Source: Nitrosarchaeum sp.
Lineage (GTDB): Archaea; Thermoproteota; Nitrososphaeria; Nitrososphaerales; Nitrosopumilaceae
Length of the DNA: 64,000 bases
Assembly (NCBI GenBank): GCA_002737445.1
Contig: NSIR01000006.1
Span: 1-64,000 of the forward strand
Reading direction: 5' to 3'
Shown: in pieces, positions 34,474 through 43,738 of the stretch
Position numbering within the stretch: position 1 is the stretch's first letter
How the letters are laid out: each line of letters opens with the position of its first letter
Made by a program: the position numbers and the translations under genes
Notes under the pieces: model-generated
Seen by the model: the letters and a program-made list of their open reading frames with translations, nothing else
Database searches by the model: none
What the model was told of the DNA's origin: nothing

Positions 34474-34608
34474 AAAACAGCGTTATATTCGAGCATTAAA
34501 TAATAATCTAATTTTAGCTCAAGCTAGTTTGATAAAAGCTATAATTTGTTTTTAATTTTCAGCGTAACACAAAAGATAAATCCCAAAATACATTCGAAAA
34601 GATGTTTT

Positions 34609-35808
34609 ATGACTCAAAGAGGAATTCTTGCATTTTCTGGCGGATTGGACACTTCAGTTGTAGTAAAATATCTTCAAGAAGAATACGACATGGAAGTAAT
34701 TACTGTAACTGTAGATGTAGGTCAAGGCGATGATCAAAAAGAAATTGAAGCGAAAGCAAAAAAATTAGGAGTAATAAAACATTACAACATTGATGCAAGA
34801 AAAGAATTTGTAGAAGACTTTATTTTTCCTTCAATTAAAGCAAATGCATTATATCAAAAAAAATATTGTCTTGCAACAGCATTAGCTAGACCATTAATTG
34901 CCCAAAAAGTTTTAGAAATTGCAAAAAAAGAAAATGTAACTGCACTAGCTCATGGTTGTTCAGGTAAAGGAAATGATCAAGTACGATTTGATATTACATT
35001 GCGTTCCGGTTCTGATTTACCAATTATTGCACCAATTCGAGACAAAAATTTAGACCGAGATACAGAATTAATATTTGCAAAAAAACATGGAATTGAAATT
35101 GATTCAGTAGCTAAGAGATTTAGTATTGATCAAAACTTGTGGGGTCGTGCAATTGAAGGTGGAGTTTTAGAGGATCCATACAATGAACCACCAGAGGACG
35201 CATTTATTTGGGTAAAAACAAAAAATTTACCAGACACTCCAACATACATGGAAATTAAATTTGATAAAGGAATACCTGTTGCCGTTGACGGACAAGTTAT
35301 GGAACCAATAAAATTAATTGAATATGTAAATAAAATAGCTGGAGAAGCAGGAGTTGGAATTGTAGATCACATTGAAGACAGAGTTGTTGGAATAAAATCA
35401 CGTGAAGTTTATGAAACACCTGGCGCTACATGTCTAATTGAAGCTCATGCAGATTTAGAAAAAATGGTTCACACAAAACATGAAAATAAATTCAAATCAA
35501 TTATTGATGATGAATGGGCATACCTTGCATATTCAGGATTGTGGCAAGATCCACTAAAACAAGATCTAGATGCATTTATTGAAAAATCACAAAATCCAGT
35601 CTCAGGAATTGTAAAGCTAAAACTATACAAATCAAGTCTCCGTGTTGTAGGAAGAAAATCTGAATACTCACTATATAATCACAAGATCGCTACATACAGT
35701 TCTGAATCGACATTTGATCAAAGAATGGCAAAAGGATTTGTAGAATTGTGGGGAATTCAATCAACAGAAGCTATTAAATTACAAAAGAAATTGTCAAAAA
35801 AAATATGA
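34609..35808 (+). CDS. argG: Argininosuccinate synthase
   Basis: The 399-residue enzyme has the PP-loop AFSGGLDTSV (8-17) and the family segments HGCSGKGNDQVRF and YEYNEPPEDAF-like YNEPPEDAF. It joins citrulline and aspartate with ATP to give argininosuccinate. The ATG at 34609 gives the normal N-terminus; the frame to 34546 is an extension. Its stop overlaps the LysW1 start as ATGA, placing late arginine synthesis in one operon with the carrier-protein route. Confidence 0.95.
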   Translation: MTQRGILAFSGGLDTSVVVKYLQEEYDMEVITVTVDVGQGDDQKEIEAKAKKLGVIKHYNIDARKEFVEDFIFPSIKANALYQKKYCLATALARPLIAQKVLEIAKKENVTALAHGCSGKGNDQVRFDITLRSGSDLPIIAPIRDKNLDRDTELIFAKKHGIEIDSVAKRFSIDQNLWGRAIEGGVLEDPYNEPPEDAFIWVKTKNLPDTPTYMEIKFDKGIPVAVDGQVMEPIKLIEYVNKIAGEAGVGIVDHIEDRVVGIKSREVYETPGATCLIEAHADLEKMVHTKHENKFKSIIDDEWAYLAYSGLWQDPLKQDLDAFIEKSQNPVSGIVKLKLYKSSLRVVGRKSEYSLYNHKIATYSSESTFDQRMAKGFVELWGIQSTEAIKLQKKLSKKI

Positions 35809-35972
35809 ATTGTCAAGATTGTGATGCAACTCTTAACATCCCAGACGATGCCGCTGTTGGAGAAATTATCTCCTGCCCTGATTGTGGTGCCGACTTTGAG
35901 ATCGCAAAAAAAGTAGGATCTACTGTTGAGCTTAAACAAGCAGAAAGTGTCGGCGAAGACTGGGGAGAGTAA
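35805..35972 (+). CDS. lysW: Amino-group carrier protein LysW (copy 1, canonical Glu end)
   Basis: The 55-residue acidic protein has a zinc knuckle pair (C3/C6 and C24/C27) and ends EDWGE. In the LysW system the gamma-carboxyl of the terminal Glu is joined to the amino group of glutamate or aminoadipate, so the carrier protects and presents the substrate. It overlaps argG upstream and the ligase gene downstream (TAATG). The position suggests it serves ArgX and arginine synthesis. Confidence 0.95.
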   Translation: MNCQDCDATLNIPDDAAVGEIISCPDCGADFEIAKKVGSTVELKQAESVGEDWGE

Positions 35973-36829
35973 TGCCAAAAATTTGTATTGTTTTTGACCG
36001 CCTAAGAACGGAAGAAAAAATGCTTGAAAAAGAAGCATCCGATCTAGGTTATCAAGTAGTAATGCTTGATGCAAAAACTACCAAGATCAATACAGATAGT
36101 AAAAGAAATGATTTTGATTTTGGAGACGTTGTTTTAGAAAGATGTGTTAGTTATTTTAGAGGTCTGCATTTTACTGCAGGTCTAGAATTTATGGACGTAC
36201 CAGTGCTCAATAAATTTCAAGTTGCAAATCAATGTGGAAATAAAATGTTCATGACTATGCTTTTAAAAAAAAATAATGTACCTACACCAAAAACATATTT
36301 TTCATTTTCAAGTGAAAGTGCATTAGAGAATATAGAAAATATAGGATATCCCATGGTGATTAAACCAGTAATTGGAAGTTGGGGTAGAGGTGTAATGCAA
36401 TTAAAAGACAAAGATACAGCTGATGCAGTTTTTGAGATTAGAGATATTACAGATAGTCCACATGATAGAATTTTCTATTTGCAAGAATTGATTCAAAGAC
36501 CACCAAGGGATATCAGAGTAATTACTATAGGAGATGAACCAATAGCTGCCATGTATAGAAAATCCACAGGCGGTTTTAAAACAAACATAGCATTAGGTGC
36601 AGACCCAGAATTATGTGAAATTACAAATGAAATTGAAGAAATATCTATCAAAGCATCAAAAGCCATGGGTGGTGGAATTTTAGGCATTGATATTATGGAA
36701 GACGAAAAGCGCGGATTGGTAGTTCATGAGGTAAATAATACCGTAGAGTTTAAGGGATTATCAAGAGTCTCACAACGAAATATTCCAAAAGAAATAGTAG
36801 AATTTGCTTTAAGATATGTTAGGAAATAA
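35972..36829 (+). CDS. argX: LysW-glutamate ligase ArgX (ATP-grasp)
   Basis: The 285-residue RimK-family ATP-grasp enzyme has VIKPVIGSWGRG near 129-140 and a substrate loop STGGFKTN at 198-205. It couples an amino acid to the C-terminal Glu of LysW. The GGF loop, in contrast to NGNW of the second copy, and its place after argG suggest glutamate as substrate (arginine branch). This specificity call is inference from context and loop; the enzyme could be bifunctional. Confidence 0.85.
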   Translation: MPKICIVFDRLRTEEKMLEKEASDLGYQVVMLDAKTTKINTDSKRNDFDFGDVVLERCVSYFRGLHFTAGLEFMDVPVLNKFQVANQCGNKMFMTMLLKKNNVPTPKTYFSFSSESALENIENIGYPMVIKPVIGSWGRGVMQLKDKDTADAVFEIRDITDSPHDRIFYLQELIQRPPRDIRVITIGDEPIAAMYRKSTGGFKTNIALGADPELCEITNEIEEISIKASKAMGGGILGIDIMEDEKRGLVVHEVNNTVEFKGLSRVSQRNIPKEIVEFALRYVRK

Positions 36830-36856: not shown

Positions 36857-37903
36857 ATGAGAGTAGGTGTTGTTGGTGCATCAGGTTATGTTGGAGGAGA
36901 AACACTTCGCCTGTTAGTAAATCATCCAAAAGTGGAGATCGCAATGGTGACCTCAAGACAACATGCTGGTGAATATCTTCATAGAATTCAACCAAGCTTG
37001 AAAGGATTTACAGATTTAACTTTTTCAGAATTAGATTATGATAAAATTTCAGACAAGTGTGATATTGTGTTTACAGCAGTACCACATGGAACTGCAACTG
37101 AAATTGTAAAGGCACTGTATGACAGAGGTCTCAAAGTTATTGATTTGAGTGCAGACTATAGATTACACAATGCAGCAGATTACGATAAATGGTATGGTTG
37201 GGAACATCCACATCCAGATTATTTACCAAAATCAGTATTTGGTGTTCCAGAATTACATAGAGAGGAAATTAAAAATGCAAAACTTGTTTCATGCCCTGGA
37301 TGTATGGCAGTAACTTCAATGTTAGCACTTGCACCACTTATTCGACATGATCTAATTGATTTAGATCACATTATTGTAGATTCTAAAATTGGTTCATCTG
37401 GTGCAGGTTCAGGTTCTGGAACTGCTCATGCAATGAGAGCAGGAGTTATCAGACCATACAAGCCAGCAAAGCATAGACACACTGGAGAAATAGAACAAGA
37501 GCTAAGTGAAATTGCAGGAAAGAAAATTCGTGTTTCAATGAGTCCACATGCAGTAGATATTGTTAGAGGAATTTTATGTACAAATCATACATTCATGAAA
37601 AAAGACATTGATGAAAAAGAGATTTGGAAGATATATCGTGAAACATACGGTCAAGAAAAATTTATCAGATTAATTAGAGATAAAAAAGGACTGTACAAAT
37701 TCCCAGATCCAAAATTTGTTGTCGGTTCAAACTTTTGTGATATTGGTTTTGATATTGATGAGGAAAATCATAGATTGATTGCTTTATCTGCTTCAGATAA
37801 TTTAATGAAAGGTGCAGCAGGTTCTGCCATACAAAACATGAATGTGATGTGCGGTTTTGATGAAATGGACGGCTTGAGATATACTCCGCTCACTCCAGTA
37901 TAG
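36857..37903 (+). CDS. lysY: LysW-glutamyl/aminoadipyl-phosphate reductase
   Basis: An ArgC-family NADPH-dependent reductase of 348 residues: Rossmann motif GVVGASGYVGGE (4-15), the catalytic Cys in CPGCMAVTS (C149) and the His region RHRHTGEIEQE-like KHRHTGEIEQE. It reduces the carrier-bound acyl phosphate to the semialdehyde. Only one copy is present, so it probably serves both arginine and lysine branches. The basic patches expected for docking acidic LysW are plausible but not analysed. Confidence 0.92.
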   Translation: MRVGVVGASGYVGGETLRLLVNHPKVEIAMVTSRQHAGEYLHRIQPSLKGFTDLTFSELDYDKISDKCDIVFTAVPHGTATEIVKALYDRGLKVIDLSADYRLHNAADYDKWYGWEHPHPDYLPKSVFGVPELHREEIKNAKLVSCPGCMAVTSMLALAPLIRHDLIDLDHIIVDSKIGSSGAGSGSGTAHAMRAGVIRPYKPAKHRHTGEIEQELSEIAGKKIRVSMSPHAVDIVRGILCTNHTFMKKDIDEKEIWKIYRETYGQEKFIRLIRDKKGLYKFPDPKFVVGSNFCDIGFDIDEENHRLIALSASDNLMKGAAGSAIQNMNVMCGFDEMDGLRYTPLTPV

Positions 37904-37905
37904 AA

Positions 37906-38709
37906 ATGATCACAATTAAAATCGGTGGAAGCGTCGTAGATAATTTACATCCATCAACTATTGCAGATATAAAAAAAATTGCACAAACAGAGGGCGTAAT
38001 CATTGTTCATGGTGGTGGAAAAGAAGTTACAAAAGTTTGCGAGCAACTAGGTAAGGAACCAAAATTTGTAACATCACCAAGTGGAATTAAAAGTAGATAC
38101 ACTGACAAAGAAACAGTAGAAATTTTTACAATGGTAATGTCTGGACGAATAAATAAAACAATTGTGCAAATGCTCCAAAAAAATGGAATTAATGCAATAG
38201 GTCTTTCAGGAGTTGATGGAAAAATAATTCAAGCTGAGAGAAAGAAAACTCTACTAATCATTAATGATAAAGGTCGAAAACAGGCAATTGATGGAGGATA
38301 TACAGGTAAAATTACCAATGTCAATGCAGATTTTATCAAATCACTTTTGGATCAAGGTATGACGCCAGTAATTTCACCAATTGCAATTAGTGAGGAATGT
38401 GATTTTCTCAATATAGATGGTGATAGGGCTGCAGCGTATGTAGCCGGAAGTGTAGGTGCAGACAAAGTTTTATTCATAACAAATGTTGATGGACTTTTGA
38501 TGGATGACAAACTGGTAACAAATCTCACACTCTCACAAGCCAAAGAAATTAGACCAAAGATTGGTCCAGGTATGGAAAAGAAAATTCTTGCATCAACTGA
38601 AGCACTAGATATGGGTGTAAAAGAGGCAATTATCGCAAATGGACAAAAAGAGAATCCTATATCATCAGCGATATCCCACAATAATTGTACGGTGATTAAA
38701 CATGACTGA
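37906..38709 (+). CDS. lysZ: LysW-glutamate/aminoadipate kinase
   Basis: An ArgB-family amino-acid kinase of 267 residues with IKIGGSVVDN (4-13), IVHGGGKEV, NADFIKSLL and FITNVDGLL. It phosphorylates the side-chain carboxylate of the amino acid held by LysW, the step before the reductase. It begins two bases after the reductase stop and overlaps the aminotransferase start by eight bases. As a single copy it probably acts in both branches. Confidence 0.92.
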   Translation: MITIKIGGSVVDNLHPSTIADIKKIAQTEGVIIVHGGGKEVTKVCEQLGKEPKFVTSPSGIKSRYTDKETVEIFTMVMSGRINKTIVQMLQKNGINAIGLSGVDGKIIQAERKKTLLIINDKGRKQAIDGGYTGKITNVNADFIKSLLDQGMTPVISPIAISEECDFLNIDGDRAAAYVAGSVGADKVLFITNVDGLLMDDKLVTNLTLSQAKEIRPKIGPGMEKKILASTEALDMGVKEAIIANGQKENPISSAISHNNCTVIKHD

Positions 38710-39880
38710 AGATGACTTTATGGGATCTCTCTATCAGAGATTTCCAGTAACAATTGAAAAGGGAATTGGATCCCATGTTTGGGATATCAATGGAAAGGAG
38801 TACATTGATTGTATGGCAGGATATGGCGTAGCAATTGTTGGACATCAAAATAAAAGAGTTGTAAATGCAATCAAAGAACAAGTAGACAAAATAATCACTG
38901 TGCATAGTTCACTGTACAATAAAACAAGAGAAGAATTTCTCAAAACATTGATTGGTCTTGCACCAAAAGGATTGACACAAGTACATCTGAATAATAGTGG
39001 CGCTGAAGCAATAGAGGCTGCAATAAAATTTTCAAGAAAGTTTACAGGTAAAAAAGGAATGGTTGCCATGAAAGGATCTTATCATGGAAAATCACTTGGA
39101 GCATTATCAATTACATTTAATCCAAAATACAAAAAAGCATTTGAACCATTAATTGAAAAAGTTTCGTTTGCATCATTTGGAGATATCGAATCACTTCGCT
39201 CAACAATTGATCAAGACACAGCTTTTGTTATTTTAGAACCAATTCAAGGTGAAAGTGGAATTAATGTTGCACCAGATGGATTTTTACAACAAGTAAGAGA
39301 GATTTGCAATGAAAAAGGAATTCTTTTAATTTTTGATGAAATACAAGCAGGTTTAGGCAGAACTGGTCGATTATGGGCTTGTGATCATTGGAATACAGCA
39401 CCAGATATCTTGTGTCTTGCAAAAGGAATTGCCGGTGGAGTTCCAATGGGTGCAACAATTGTAAGACAGGACATTCTTGCTTCAATGAGTAAGGGAGAAC
39501 ACTCATCAACATTTGGAGGAAATCCACTTTCATGTGCTGCAGGTATTGCAACATTACATGCACTCACTCAAGACGGTTTGATTGAAAATTCAGAAAAAAT
39601 GGGAAACTATTTCAGAGAAGGTTTGGAAAAATTAAAAGCAAAACACACCATAATTAGAGAAATTAGAGGAAAGGGTTTGATGATCGGTGTGGAATTAAAA
39701 TTCGAGGTAAAAGATATTTTAATGAATCTTATGAAAGAAGGAGTGTTAATGCTATATTCAGGTAGAAATATTTTAAGAATCTTGCCACCTCTAGTAATTA
39801 CTAGAGAAGACATAACAAAAGTTTTAGAAACCCTAGATTCAGTATTAACTCAAGAGGAAGCAAAAAATAATGTACAGTGA
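38702..39880 (+). CDS. lysJ: LysW-gamma-L-lysine/ornithine aminotransferase
   Basis: A 392-residue class III PLP aminotransferase of the ArgD family: FDEIQAGLGRTG (211-222) and the PLP lysine K241 in LCLAKGIAGG. It transfers an amino group from glutamate to the carrier-bound semialdehyde, giving LysW-ornithine or LysW-lysine. Overlaps with both neighbours (8 and 11 bases) show tight operon packing. Confidence 0.92.
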   Translation: MTEDDFMGSLYQRFPVTIEKGIGSHVWDINGKEYIDCMAGYGVAIVGHQNKRVVNAIKEQVDKIITVHSSLYNKTREEFLKTLIGLAPKGLTQVHLNNSGAEAIEAAIKFSRKFTGKKGMVAMKGSYHGKSLGALSITFNPKYKKAFEPLIEKVSFASFGDIESLRSTIDQDTAFVILEPIQGESGINVAPDGFLQQVREICNEKGILLIFDEIQAGLGRTGRLWACDHWNTAPDILCLAKGIAGGVPMGATIVRQDILASMSKGEHSSTFGGNPLSCAAGIATLHALTQDGLIENSEKMGNYFREGLEKLKAKHTIIREIRGKGLMIGVELKFEVKDILMNLMKEGVLMLYSGRNILRILPPLVITREDITKVLETLDSVLTQEEAKNNVQ

Positions 39881-40289
39881 TAAAGTAGACCAAAAAATAA
39901 TGGATTTTCTTAGAGATGATTCACGAGAATCATTTGTAGATATAGGAAAGAAACTAAAATTATCTGAATCAGCTATTAGACGACGAGTGAAAAATTTAGT
40001 AGATAATAAAATTATTAAAAAATTCACTATAGAGATTGGAGAGGAAAATGCTACCAGTGCAATCGTTTTGATATCAGTTGATTCTGCAACAGATACATCC
40101 AAAGTTTCAGAAAAATTAGCAAAATTGGAAGGAGTCAAAACAGTTTACGAAATTACAGGTCAATATGATATTACCACCATAATTAGTGCACCAAATATTT
40201 CTGAAATAAACAAAAGCATAGATGCATTAAGAAAAATTCAGGGGGTTATTGACACCAATACAGTAATTATTTTAAGAAAAGTATCCTAA
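39870..40289 (+). CDS. Lrp/AsnC family regulator of the lysine/arginine cluster
   Basis: A full-length 139-residue Lrp: N-terminal helix-turn-helix (about 5-50, DQKIMDFLRDDSRESFVDIGK) and C-terminal RAM domain (65-138, GQYDITTIISAP). Its frame overlaps the aminotransferase gene. By analogy with LysM of Sulfolobus, which senses lysine and controls the lys cluster, it probably adjusts this operon to amino-acid levels; the ligand is not visible. Confidence 0.85.
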   Translation: MYSDKVDQKIMDFLRDDSRESFVDIGKKLKLSESAIRRRVKNLVDNKIIKKFTIEIGEENATSAIVLISVDSATDTSKVSEKLAKLEGVKTVYEITGQYDITTIISAPNISEINKSIDALRKIQGVIDTNTVIILRKVS

Positions 40290-40405
40290 GACGACTTTCG
40301 GTTCATAATTTCTATAATTATCTAAATTAGGATCATGTTAAACAATTTCCAGCGAAGATAGTACGAATAACCTTATATTATTAATTAATGTTAACGTTTT
40401 CTGTA

Positions 40406-41572
40406 ATGAAAGATCCGAATTACTATGCAGACTTGTATAACGCATATGATAAAAATCCAAAAAAAATCAAAGTACTAGATAGTACTCTTAGAGAAGGAGA
40501 ACAACATCCGGGAGTTTCATTTACAATTAAACAACGCATACAGATTGCATGGATGTTAGATTATTTTGGTGTAGACCAAATTGAAATTTCGCCAGTTATT
40601 TCAAATGATCATAAAGAAGCAACTAAAACAATTATCAAACAAGGATTAAAAGCAGATATTGTATCTCACGGACGAGCTCTCAAAGAAGATATAGATATTT
40701 CATTAAGCTGTGATGCAAAATGGTGTGCAGCATATCTTGGAATTTCAGATATACATCTAAAAGAAAAATTACGGATTTCAAGAGACGAGGCAATTACTCG
40801 TGCAGTAGAGACAGTTGAATATGCAAAAGCACATGGACTCAAAATTAGATTTACTGTTGAAGACGGAAGTAGGGCAGAACCAGAATTTCTCTTAAAGGTA
40901 TGCAAGGCAATTGAGGAAGCAGGTGTTGATAGAATTAGTTTACCTGATACAGTTGGAATTATGCGTCCAATTGGAATGTATAATTTTGTCAAACTAGTCA
41001 GTGATCAAGTAAATGTTCCACTTGATGCACATGTGCACAATGATATTGGATTTGCAGTAGCTAATGCGTTTGCAGCATGTGATGCCGGAGTAGATCAGAT
41101 ACATACTACAATTGACGGAATCGGAGAAAGAACCGGTATTCCACCACTTGCAGAAGTTGCAGTAGCATTGACTTATCTGTACAAATCACCAAATGATTTC
41201 AGATTAGATATGCTACTTGATTTATCACGATTAATTGAAAATTATACTTCGATTAAACCATATGATTCAAAACCAATCGTGGGATCTTCTGCATACAAAC
41301 ACAAAGCTGGAACACACCTTGCAGCCATACTACGTAATCCTGCAGCTTATGAGCCAATTCCACCAAGAGCCGTTGGAAATACAAGAAGAATCGTATTTGG
41401 AGAATTGGCAGGTAAAACAGGTGCCGCATATCTAATGTCGATTCTAGGTTTAGAAAAAAATGATGAAGGGGCAAAAGCAGTGGCTGCTGGGCTCAAAGAA
41501 CTTCGAATGGGAGATTTAATTGAAATTCCACTTGAAGATAGACTTGAAAAAAAGATAATTAATGATAAATAG
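40406..41572 (+). CDS. lysS: Homocitrate synthase
   Basis: A 388-residue DRE-TIM metallolyase with LDSTLREGEQHPGV near the N-terminus, DAHVHNDIGFAVAN as the metal-binding HxH region and DGIGERTGIPPL. It condenses acetyl-CoA with 2-oxoglutarate, the entry to alpha-aminoadipate and lysine. The gene position between the shared LysW enzymes and LysX favours homocitrate over 2-isopropylmalate synthase, which shares the fold. The ATG at 40406 has a TATA-like ttatattatt about 30 bases before; an ATG at 40388 is the alternative. Confidence 0.88.
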   Translation: MKDPNYYADLYNAYDKNPKKIKVLDSTLREGEQHPGVSFTIKQRIQIAWMLDYFGVDQIEISPVISNDHKEATKTIIKQGLKADIVSHGRALKEDIDISLSCDAKWCAAYLGISDIHLKEKLRISRDEAITRAVETVEYAKAHGLKIRFTVEDGSRAEPEFLLKVCKAIEEAGVDRISLPDTVGIMRPIGMYNFVKLVSDQVNVPLDAHVHNDIGFAVANAFAACDAGVDQIHTTIDGIGERTGIPPLAEVAVALTYLYKSPNDFRLDMLLDLSRLIENYTSIKPYDSKPIVGSSAYKHKAGTHLAAILRNPAAYEPIPPRAVGNTRRIVFGELAGKTGAAYLMSILGLEKNDEGAKAVAAGLKELRMGDLIEIPLEDRLEKKIINDK

Positions 41573-41594: not shown

Positions 41595-41762
41595 ATGTCT
41601 AAATGTCAAGAATGTGATGCAGATATGTCCATTCCACAAGATGCCGTAGAAGGAGAAATTGTTACATGTCCTGAATGTGGTTCAAGTTTTGAATTATCTA
41701 AAGGCACAAATGGTTTCCAATTAAAGCCAGCCCAAACGGTTGGCGAGGATTGGGGACAGTGA
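41595..41762 (+). CDS. LysW-like carrier protein copy 2, ending in Gln
   Basis: The 55-residue protein is clearly a LysW paralogue: zinc knuckles C4/C7 and C25/C28, then GEDWG near the end. The terminal residue, however, is Gln (cag before tga) instead of Glu. Canonical LysW uses the side-chain carboxyl of the last Glu, so this copy cannot be loaded in the usual way unless the Gln is deamidated. Its stop overlaps the GTG start of the LysX gene (GTGA), so it is translated with that ligase. Longer frames from 41562 are rejected. Confidence 0.88.
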   Translation: MSKCQECDADMSIPQDAVEGEIVTCPECGSSFELSKGTNGFQLKPAQTVGEDWGQ

Positions 41763-42607
41763 GTCCTGACGTTACAATTCTTTATGATACCATCAGATGG
41801 GAAGAAAAAGCTCTTTTAGAAGCTGGTAGAAAAAAAGACATCAACCTACAGATGCTTGATTGTAAGAATTTAGCTATTGATTTAGATAAAAAACCAGAAA
41901 GATATGGACCAGTCATTCAAAGATGTGTAAGTTATTATCGAAATCTACATTCAACTGCAGCACTTGAGGGAATGGGTGTCAATGTAATTAATTGTCTTAA
42001 CACGGGAATTTTGGCAGGAAATAAATTATTTACACACATGCTGTTAAAAAAAGCAGGAGTTCCAACACCATATGCAACAGTTGCGTTTTCAAAAGACGCT
42101 GCAATAGGATATTTGGAAACAAATGGGTATCCAAAAGTTATCAAACCAACGGTTGGTAGTTGGGGTAGATTAATTTCAAAATTAAATGATAAAGATTCAG
42201 CTGAGGGAATTATTGAAAGCAGAGAAACCATGTATCCAATATATCAAGTTCATTATTTAGAGGAATTTGTCAACAGACCACCAAGAGACATACGAGCAAT
42301 AATGATTGGCGATAAAATTGTTGCAGCTATATATAGAAATTCTGGAAATGGAAATTGGAAAACAAATATGGCATTAGGTGGAACTGCCGAAGTATGTAAA
42401 GTGACTCCTGAAATGGAAGAGATGTGCATAAAGGCAAAAAATGCAGTACAAGGGGACATTGTAGGAGTGGATTTAATGGAAAGTAATGAACGCGGATTAG
42501 TAGTTCATGAAGTTAATAATACAACTGAATATAAAAATACAGTAAGAGTGTGTGGCGTAGACATACCTTCCTTAATGATTGACTATGCAATGAAAAGTAA
42601 CAAGTGA
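41759..42607 (+). CDS. lysX: LysW-aminoadipate ligase LysX (ATP-grasp)
   Basis: The second RimK-family ATP-grasp enzyme (282 residues) shares KPTVGSWGR and NRPPRDIRA with ArgX but has SGNGNWKTN at 195-203 in the substrate loop. With homocitrate synthase and LysW2 just upstream, aminoadipate is the likely substrate. The start is GTG overlapping the LysW2 stop. A TTG nine bases upstream is possible but less likely. Confidence 0.85.
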   Translation: MSPDVTILYDTIRWEEKALLEAGRKKDINLQMLDCKNLAIDLDKKPERYGPVIQRCVSYYRNLHSTAALEGMGVNVINCLNTGILAGNKLFTHMLLKKAGVPTPYATVAFSKDAAIGYLETNGYPKVIKPTVGSWGRLISKLNDKDSAEGIIESRETMYPIYQVHYLEEFVNRPPRDIRAIMIGDKIVAAIYRNSGNGNWKTNMALGGTAEVCKVTPEMEEMCIKAKNAVQGDIVGVDLMESNERGLVVHEVNNTTEYKNTVRVCGVDIPSLMIDYAMKSNK

Positions 42608-42610
42608 GAA

Positions 42611-43738
42611 TTGGAAACAACATTTACAGTCACCCCAAGATTTGCCGTGAAGATGCTAGAGAAAGCATTGAGATTGTACACACCCTCACTCAGTGAAAAA
42701 ACAATGGCAGAATTTCTTGCAGACAAGTGTGATGATTTAGGATTTGAAGATATTCACATAGACGAGGTAGGCAATATTATTGCAAAAAAAGGTACAGGTT
42801 CACCAAAAATATTACTTTGTGGACATATGGATGTGGTACCAGGAAAAGTCAAAGTTAGAAAAGAAGGAGATTCACTTTACGGTCGTGGAGCTTCAGATGC
42901 TAAAGCACCACTAATGGCAATGTTGTTTGCTGCAGCTTCAATTCAAAATAATAATGGAACCATAATTTTTGTTGGAACTGTTGATGAAGAAGGAAATGCA
43001 ACAGGTGTAAAAAATCTAGTAAAGAATCACATAGATGCAGATTATGCAGTGTTTGGAGAACCAAGTGGAATAAAGCAAGTGACAATTGCATACAAAGGAA
43101 GATTGGCAATTAATCTCAAAGTGAGTGTTGATGATAGTGCTCATGCAAGTGCACCATGGCTTTCAAAAAATGCAATTGAGGAGACAATGATCTTTTCACA
43201 AGAACTCAAAGAAGGTTTGGAATCAGGTCAAGAAAATAAAAGTAAAGGAATGCTGTTAACAGTAACACTAACTGAAATCAGTGGTGGAACAAGTCATAAC
43301 ATTACACCAAAAGAATGCGTATCAACTTTTGACATAAGAATTCCTGTAGATACAAATTGTAAAATAACAGAACAAAGAATTTCAGTTCTAGTTAATGAGA
43401 TTGCACATAGAAGAAAAGTGGTAGCATATTATTCAATTATAGATGAAACGGAACCTTTTGAGGCACCACATGATTCAGCTATAGTTCGTGCATTCAATTT
43501 AGCAGTCATGGATGTAGAACATACAAGACCAACTTTGATTAGAAAAACAGGTACAGGAGATATGAATGTCATAGGAAATGAATGGAAAATTCCCGTAGTC
43601 ACATATGGTCCAGGTGATCCACATCAAGCTCACACAGTAGATGAAAAAGTATCCATTGATGAGTACCTAAGAGGAATTGAAATTTTAAAGAGAATGATAC
43701 ACCATTTAAAAAGACTACATGATAAAAGTATAAAGTAA
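42611..43738 (+). CDS. lysK: LysW-lysine/ornithine carboxypeptidase
   Basis: A 375-residue M20-family metallopeptidase: CGHMDVVPGK for the first zinc His/Asp, DEEGNATGVKN for the catalytic Glu pair, and a late HTVDEKVS His. It releases lysine or ornithine from the carrier, the last step of the LysW route. It starts at TTG three bases after the ligase stop, and its own stop overlaps the DphB start (TAATG). One copy appears to serve both branches. Confidence 0.9.
   Translation: METTFTVTPRFAVKMLEKALRLYTPSLSEKTMAEFLADKCDDLGFEDIHIDEVGNIIAKKGTGSPKILLCGHMDVVPGKVKVRKEGDSLYGRGASDAKAPLMAMLFAAASIQNNNGTIIFVGTVDEEGNATGVKNLVKNHIDADYAVFGEPSGIKQVTIAYKGRLAINLKVSVDDSAHASAPWLSKNAIEETMIFSQELKEGLESGQENKSKGMLLTVTLTEISGGTSHNITPKECVSTFDIRIPVDTNCKITEQRISVLVNEIAHRRKVVAYYSIIDETEPFEAPHDSAIVRAFNLAVMDVEHTRPTLIRKTGTGDMNVIGNEWKIPVVTYGPGDPHQAHTVDEKVSIDEYLRGIEILKRMIHHLKRLHDKSIK

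Follow-up and report, generated by a model that had tools for sequence, protein, structure and literature searches.

The lysW2 gene and its cluster

The window (the whole stretch of DNA that was analyzed, 64,000 nucleotides long) comes from a genome of 1.19 Mb (G000) and contains a cluster of genes for arginine and lysine synthesis, all on the forward strand. They are arranged in the order argG, lysW1, argX, lysY, lysZ, lysJ, a LysM-type regulator, a homocitrate-synthase-family gene, lysW2, lysX and lysK. The arginine part begins with argG (argininosuccinate synthase, 34573–35808, from a profile match), followed by lysW1 (35805–35972), which encodes the argX-linked carrier and ends in GEDWGE, and by argX itself (35972–36829), a ligase with a GF-type signature; the last two were assigned by reading of the ORF together with a profile match. 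Profile matches also identify the lysY/argC-type reductase that is common to both branches (36857–37903), the [LysW]-aminoadipate/glutamate kinase lysZ (37906–38709) and the lysJ/argD-type aminotransferase (38702–39880). The LysM-type regulator, of the Lrp/AsnC group (39870–40289), scores above the cut-off of NF040947, and the homocitrate/isopropylmalate synthase family gene (40388–41572, profile match), immediately 5′ of lysW2, probably provides the first step to aminoadipate. At one locus in another genome (L117, G020) the argG-lysW1-argX segment is inverted relative to lysY-lysZ-lysJ, which is not so at the other loci read.

lysW2 lies at 41595–41762 (MSKCQECDADMSIPQDAVEGEIVTCPECGSSFELSKGTNGFQLKPAQTVGEDWGQ) and encodes a zinc-ribbon amino-group carrier of 55 amino acids with the tail GEDWGQ. 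The original prediction described it as a LysW paralogue ending in Gln, and this reading was correct: a CAG codon occupies positions 41757–41759 and is followed by a TGA stop at 41760–41762. The zinc knuckles and the GEDWG part of the tail are retained, again as had been described, with the zinc-binding CxxC…CxxC present as CQEC and CPEC. The gene is directly upstream of lysX, which is followed by lysK. lysX (41759–42607) encodes an ATP-grasp ligase with an NWKTN-type signature, which scores above the cut-off of TIGR02144 and matches PDB entries 3vpd, 1uc8, 5k2m and 3vpb; it probably starts at a GTG whose first G is the last base of the lysW2 CAG, with TTG at 41750 as the alternative. lysK (42611–43738) encodes an M20 enzyme resembling [LysW]-lysine hydrolase, which we propose below as a candidate LysW-Gln deamidase. 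A search of the window genome for a third LysW found none. In LysW2 sequence, the closest relatives that have a name are members of the Nitrosopumilaceae, Nitrosarchaeum among them.

LysW2 scores 86.4 bits against the NCBIfam model NF041070 (“LysW/ArgW”, cut-off 75) and above the cut-off of Pfam PF21344, and is encoded beside a LysX/ArgX ligase and LysZ/Y/J/K, as are LysW/ArgW carriers. It differs in its encoded C-terminus, which is EDWGQ and not the EDWGE expected of the family. By profile, zinc ligands and context LysW2 is a LysW/ArgW carrier, and it is a variant in its encoded terminal residue. We count it as the same protein despite the Gln because of the profile, the context, and the genomes described below in which such a protein is the only carrier. 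Both LysW1 and LysW2 are far below the cut-off of the TIGR01206 (lysW) model, at 28 against 53 bits; annotation with TIGR01206 alone would miss both carriers of the window, and NF041070 catches both.

Occurrence of the Gln terminus

The terminal Glu is considered the only residue that LysW cannot do without (PMC10433800), yet many archaea encode Gln at this position. In Natrinema, the load is carried on the γ-carboxyl of the terminal Glu, the ligase recognizes the EDWGE tail through its GSWGR motif, and replacement of the terminal Glu by Ala (E54A) abolishes arginine synthesis (PMC10433800).

In a comparison of LysW2 with its relatives, which had been proposed as a check, the 30 nearest loci of the family divide into 28 that keep the terminal Gln codon and two that end in Glu. 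When 400 genomes of the class were scanned for tail patterns, EDWGQ followed by a stop codon occurred in 248, far more often than by chance, and a non-Gln tail in 253; the two figures overlap since a genome of the window's family usually carries one of each. Gln is the normal end of LysW2 in the groups that we take to be Nitrosopumilaceae (which as a rule combine LysW1-Glu and LysW2-Gln), Nitrosocaldaceae and much of Nitrososphaeraceae, with Gln forms in Nitrosopumilus, Nitrosotalea, Nitrosopelagicus, Nitrosotenuis and Cenarchaeum, as well as in Nitrososphaera, Nitrosocosmicus and Nitrosocaldus. Gln-ended LysW also occurs in three further Thermoproteota families; in Jordarchaeia (L125, L167), where the gene adjoins lysX, lysY, lysZ, lysJ and lysK; and in Undinarchaeales (L201, L203), where it adjoins a ligase and lysY. 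A tie to ammonia oxidation was rejected on the strength of these Jordarchaeia, Undinarchaeales and other Thermoproteota forms. Bacterial matches of the EDWGQ pattern scan turned out not to be LysW. Two of the Thermoproteota families, f32 and f37, contain Gln-ended LysW at loci L275–L284, L287, L288, L290–L292 and L299; many of these have the zinc site Cys-x-x-Cys / His-x-x-Cys, and several of the operons have two ligases and one carrier.

Gln and Glu codons differ by a single base, and a sequencing error had been named as something that would overturn the original prediction. We consider the chance of a sequencing or assembly error, or of a pseudogene, to be negligible: the Gln is found in hundreds of independent assemblies, closed genomes included, it is encoded by either CAG or CAA, and it is followed by TGA, TAA or TAG. 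Since all three stop codons occur after the Gln, it is a true terminus, and a recoded or read-through TGA was rejected for the same reason. We also rejected the idea that the Gln is there because its codon overlaps the lysX GTG start, both because GAG would do equally well, and because Gln is also found as CAA, and before TAA or TAG, where there is no such overlap.

Among 257 distinct LysW proteins, the last residue is Gln in 144, Glu in 113 and anything else in none; this set was enriched for Gln by pattern scans, such that the proportion of Gln to Glu means little. Most single-base changes of GAG or GAA lead to Lys, Gly, Ala, Val or Asp, none of which was observed in the 257 proteins, and profile-search sets collected with no condition on the last residue likewise contained no third residue. 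Three LysW relatives (L338, L339 and L340) have an EDYGE tail in place of EDWGE, and retain the terminal Glu.

The two states alternate repeatedly: at least 16 changes between Glu and Gln are needed on the tree of the neighboring ligases. Some of the switches are recent, since a single genus contains both Gln (G542) and Glu (G488 and G522), and two genomes (G147 and G148) have Glu on both carriers within a Gln genus. Along the tree of LysX there are 8 changes of state, where the four-fold sites of lysX average 27.4 purine/pyrimidine changes, although only one of the two kinds of transversion is possible at the Gln/Glu base and the fair gap is therefore smaller. Gln does not drift as a free synonym of Glu, and something may favor keeping it on the LysW2 of Nitrosopumilaceae. 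One could speculate that the advantage is a newly made carrier that stays latent until LysK is present.

Carrier function and partner enzymes

The original prediction allowed that LysW2 might be an inactive partner that regulates LysX, or that LysW1 alone might be loaded, with LysW2 dispensable. The window genome does have a Glu-ended LysW1, which on this reading would carry both pathways; the gene content of other genomes contradicts it. Relaxed searching of three closed genomes (G288, G293 and G296) gives one convincing LysW in each, which is Gln-ended, and argX, lysX, lysY, lysZ, lysJ and lysK are retained; judged by gene content, the one Gln-LysW before lysX must serve both ligases. At the corresponding loci (L070, L071 and L072) argX directly follows argG, its lysW1 having been lost. 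The sole LysW is also Gln-ended in the closed genome G447 and in G440, G482, G542 and G547, and it is the only LysW found in two Undinarchaeales records, which may be incomplete. The sole-carrier Gln genomes, four of them closed, have intact ligase genes.

Genomes with two carriers present every combination. Both end in Gln in the closed genomes G297, G303 and G304 and also in G289, G244 and G245; both end in Glu in G305 and G161, as in G147 and G148; LysW1-Glu with LysW2-Gln is seen for example in G292 and G287; and the reverse, LysW1-Gln with LysW2-Glu, in G300 and G393. At two loci (L080 and L082) the arginine carrier has Gln and the lysine carrier Glu, and the residue is therefore not a label of the lysine branch. 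Because there are genomes with Gln on the sole carrier, on both carriers, or on LysW1 in the reversed arrangement, the Gln form must, on this comparative evidence, be a working carrier. An inactive or regulatory LysW2 is contradicted for the group and is not a general explanation, and we give it very little credence: Gln-LysW is the sole carrier in G288, G293, G296 and G447, both carriers have Gln in G297 and G303, and in some genomes it is the arginine carrier that has Gln and the lysine carrier that has Glu. Sufficiency of LysW1 alone is effectively excluded by the Gln-only and both-Gln genomes. The carrier that has Gln at its end is one that lysine synthesis requires, and in some genomes arginine synthesis as well, in a set of archaea that includes most ammonia oxidizers.

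A change in the partner proteins that follows the terminal residue was sought column by column in LysX/ArgX and in LysK. No column tracked the Glu/Gln state, in a scan that for the ligases had six independent supported pairs and hence low power, such that a subtle change in a partner could be missed. The GSWGR motif is retained in 155 of the 159 ligases encoded beside a Gln-LysW. As no partner change follows the state, the partners appear to be blind to it, which is what would be expected if Gln becomes Glu first.

LysK was found in every genome of ammonia-oxidizing archaea (AOA) checked. The window LysK scores 267 bits against TIGR01902 (cut-off 163) and 276.8 against the narrower equivalog NF003367, which is under the cut-off of 363; it matches the [LysW]-lysine hydrolase 5xoy along its length (1.3e-51), and the M20 motifs are kept. 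TIGR01902 matches nothing but LysK in the window genome, and the same is true of seven further AOA genomes that carry a Gln form; in G287 there is also a weak second match. In Undinarchaeales the only match to the LysK model is below the cut-off and distant from the operon, and this M20 enzyme is not a clear LysK. Two known deamidases were tried as candidates and rejected as absent or patchy in the genomes tested: Dop/PafA (PF03136) was found in none of 16 genomes, and CheD, a protein-Gln deamidase, is absent from the window genome and from most Gln genomes.

A proposed maturation of LysW-Gln

We propose that LysW-Gln is a pro-form, which is deamidated once to Glu before it is loaded, most likely by LysK; we put the probability of this reading at roughly 60%. 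LysW2 would be translated as the Gln-ended pro-form of a working amino-group carrier, and the amide of its terminal side chain would be hydrolyzed to give Glu before its first use. LysX would then load 2-aminoadipate onto the new γ-carboxylate, LysZ, LysY and LysJ would work on the bound residue, and LysK would release lysine, leaving LysW-Glu for later rounds, such that one conversion per LysW molecule would be enough. LysK is the most likely deamidase because the Gln amide is the same kind of bond as the one that it cleaves, with ammonia leaving instead of lysine or ornithine. The scattered Gln states have close Glu relatives, and the converting activity should therefore be general to the pathway, and not specific to a lineage. 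Deamidation was among the options of the original prediction, and it is favored by the strict alternation of Glu and Gln and by the lack of a partner change that follows the state; we infer the conversion itself, LysK as its enzyme, and the sufficiency of one conversion. Several points count against the proposal. LysK normally frees an amino acid and would here have to free ammonia; the one Undinarchaeales match to the LysK model is the sub-cut-off enzyme outside the operon; the low power of the column scan leaves room for a subtle change in a partner; and simple deamidation does not explain why Gln may be favored, as the 8 changes against 27.4 suggest.

The most serious competitor, although still unlikely, differs only in the enzyme: deamidation might be the work of some amidase that is not LysK, whether dedicated or housekeeping, or might be spontaneous. 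The unclear LysK of Undinarchaeales would fit another enzyme, and several of the Gln genomes come from Thermoproteota families with small genomes, perhaps hyperthermophiles, in which spontaneous deamidation would be faster. Against this, Dop and CheD have the distribution described above, and AOA are mostly mesophiles, in which loss of the Gln amide is slow. Rather improbable is a direct exchange of the Gln amide for aminoadipate or glutamate with release of ammonia, by LysK running in reverse or by another enzyme, with no free Glu in the first round. It would give the same product under the same restriction to Glu and Gln, and after the first release the carrier would end in Glu, which LysX could load; however, it calls for a further, hypothetical activity besides a LysX that is itself intact and has its motifs complete, and is no simpler than hydrolysis.

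We rate about as low the possibility that LysX and ArgX load the main-chain α-carboxyl of the last residue, as RimK does on S6, in which case the side chain would carry nothing. The ligases do belong to the RimK family (TIGR00768), with S6-glutamate ligase structures among the matches, and Glu and Gln are so nearly identical in shape that one pocket could accept both. On this reading, residues other than Glu and Gln should turn up now and then at the terminus, and the ligase, kinase, reductase, aminotransferase and hydrolase would all need to change at each of the 16 switches, whereas no change was seen in the ligase or in LysK; moreover, the LysW of studied species is loaded on the γ-carboxyl (PMC10433800). 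Finally, the working carrier might be a minor fraction of LysW2 in which Glu has been misincorporated from Glu-tRNA(Gln), the intermediate through which archaea make Gln-tRNA. The carrier is reused and so a little active protein could suffice, but error rates are low and there would be no reason for the long conservation of CAG/CAA, and we consider this as implausible as an inactive LysW2.

The Gln terminus implies either an unrecognized maturation step in amino acid synthesis or a loading chemistry unlike that of the textbook. The archaea concerned, which build lysine and arginine on the small carrier LysW, are many and include the very abundant AOA. Searches of the open-licence literature brought up nothing on a LysW with a terminal Gln; Nmar_1287, the LysW on the arginine side in Nitrosopumilus maritimus SCM1, is named in a paper on a metabolic model, which does not discuss its terminus (PMC6038301).

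The closest relatives of LysW2 are the LysW/ArgW carriers of Thermus, Sulfolobus, Thermococcus and Natrinema, which share with it the zinc-binding Cys residues, the EDWG tail and the place in a lysX/lysK cluster. The characterized carriers all end in Glu, whose γ-carboxyl is the attachment site, whereas LysW2-type carriers end in Gln. The known LysK (PDB 5xoy) cleaves a C-terminal γ-glutamyl amide of LysW, its known leaving groups being lysine and ornithine; here the leaving group would be ammonia. The RimK α-L-glutamate ligases are of the same superfamily as LysX/ArgX and also act on a protein C-terminus, that of S6. They use the α-carboxyl of S6, whereas LysX uses the γ-carboxyl of LysW.

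The original prediction knew of no described mechanism for a Gln-ended carrier, which holds for LysW in the literature searched; there is, however, a close precedent in Pup-Gln and Dop (PMC8223512, PMC7947786). Pup, like LysW, is a small modifier that ends in Glu in some species and in Gln in others. The γ-carboxyl of its Glu forms an isopeptide bond, and the pathway hydrolase Dop both deamidates Pup-Gln and cleaves the isopeptide bond, reactions described as chemically equivalent (PMC8223512, PMC7947786). The two proteins and their folds are unrelated; LysW is loaded with a small amino acid by an ATP-grasp ligase, and Pup with a protein by a glutamine-synthetase-like ligase. With no Dop/PafA homologue in the 16 genomes, the LysW of these archaea is not a Pup system, and we propose its conversion by analogy. 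If deamidation is correct, it would be a convergent parallel to Pup. In its widest form, which we advance tentatively and think somewhat more likely wrong than right, the idea is that many archaeal lineages, most AOA included, make an inactive Gln pro-carrier that is activated by C-terminal deamidation by LysK, possibly making activation depend on whether the last enzyme is present. The logic of Pup-Gln and Dop would then have evolved a second time, independently.
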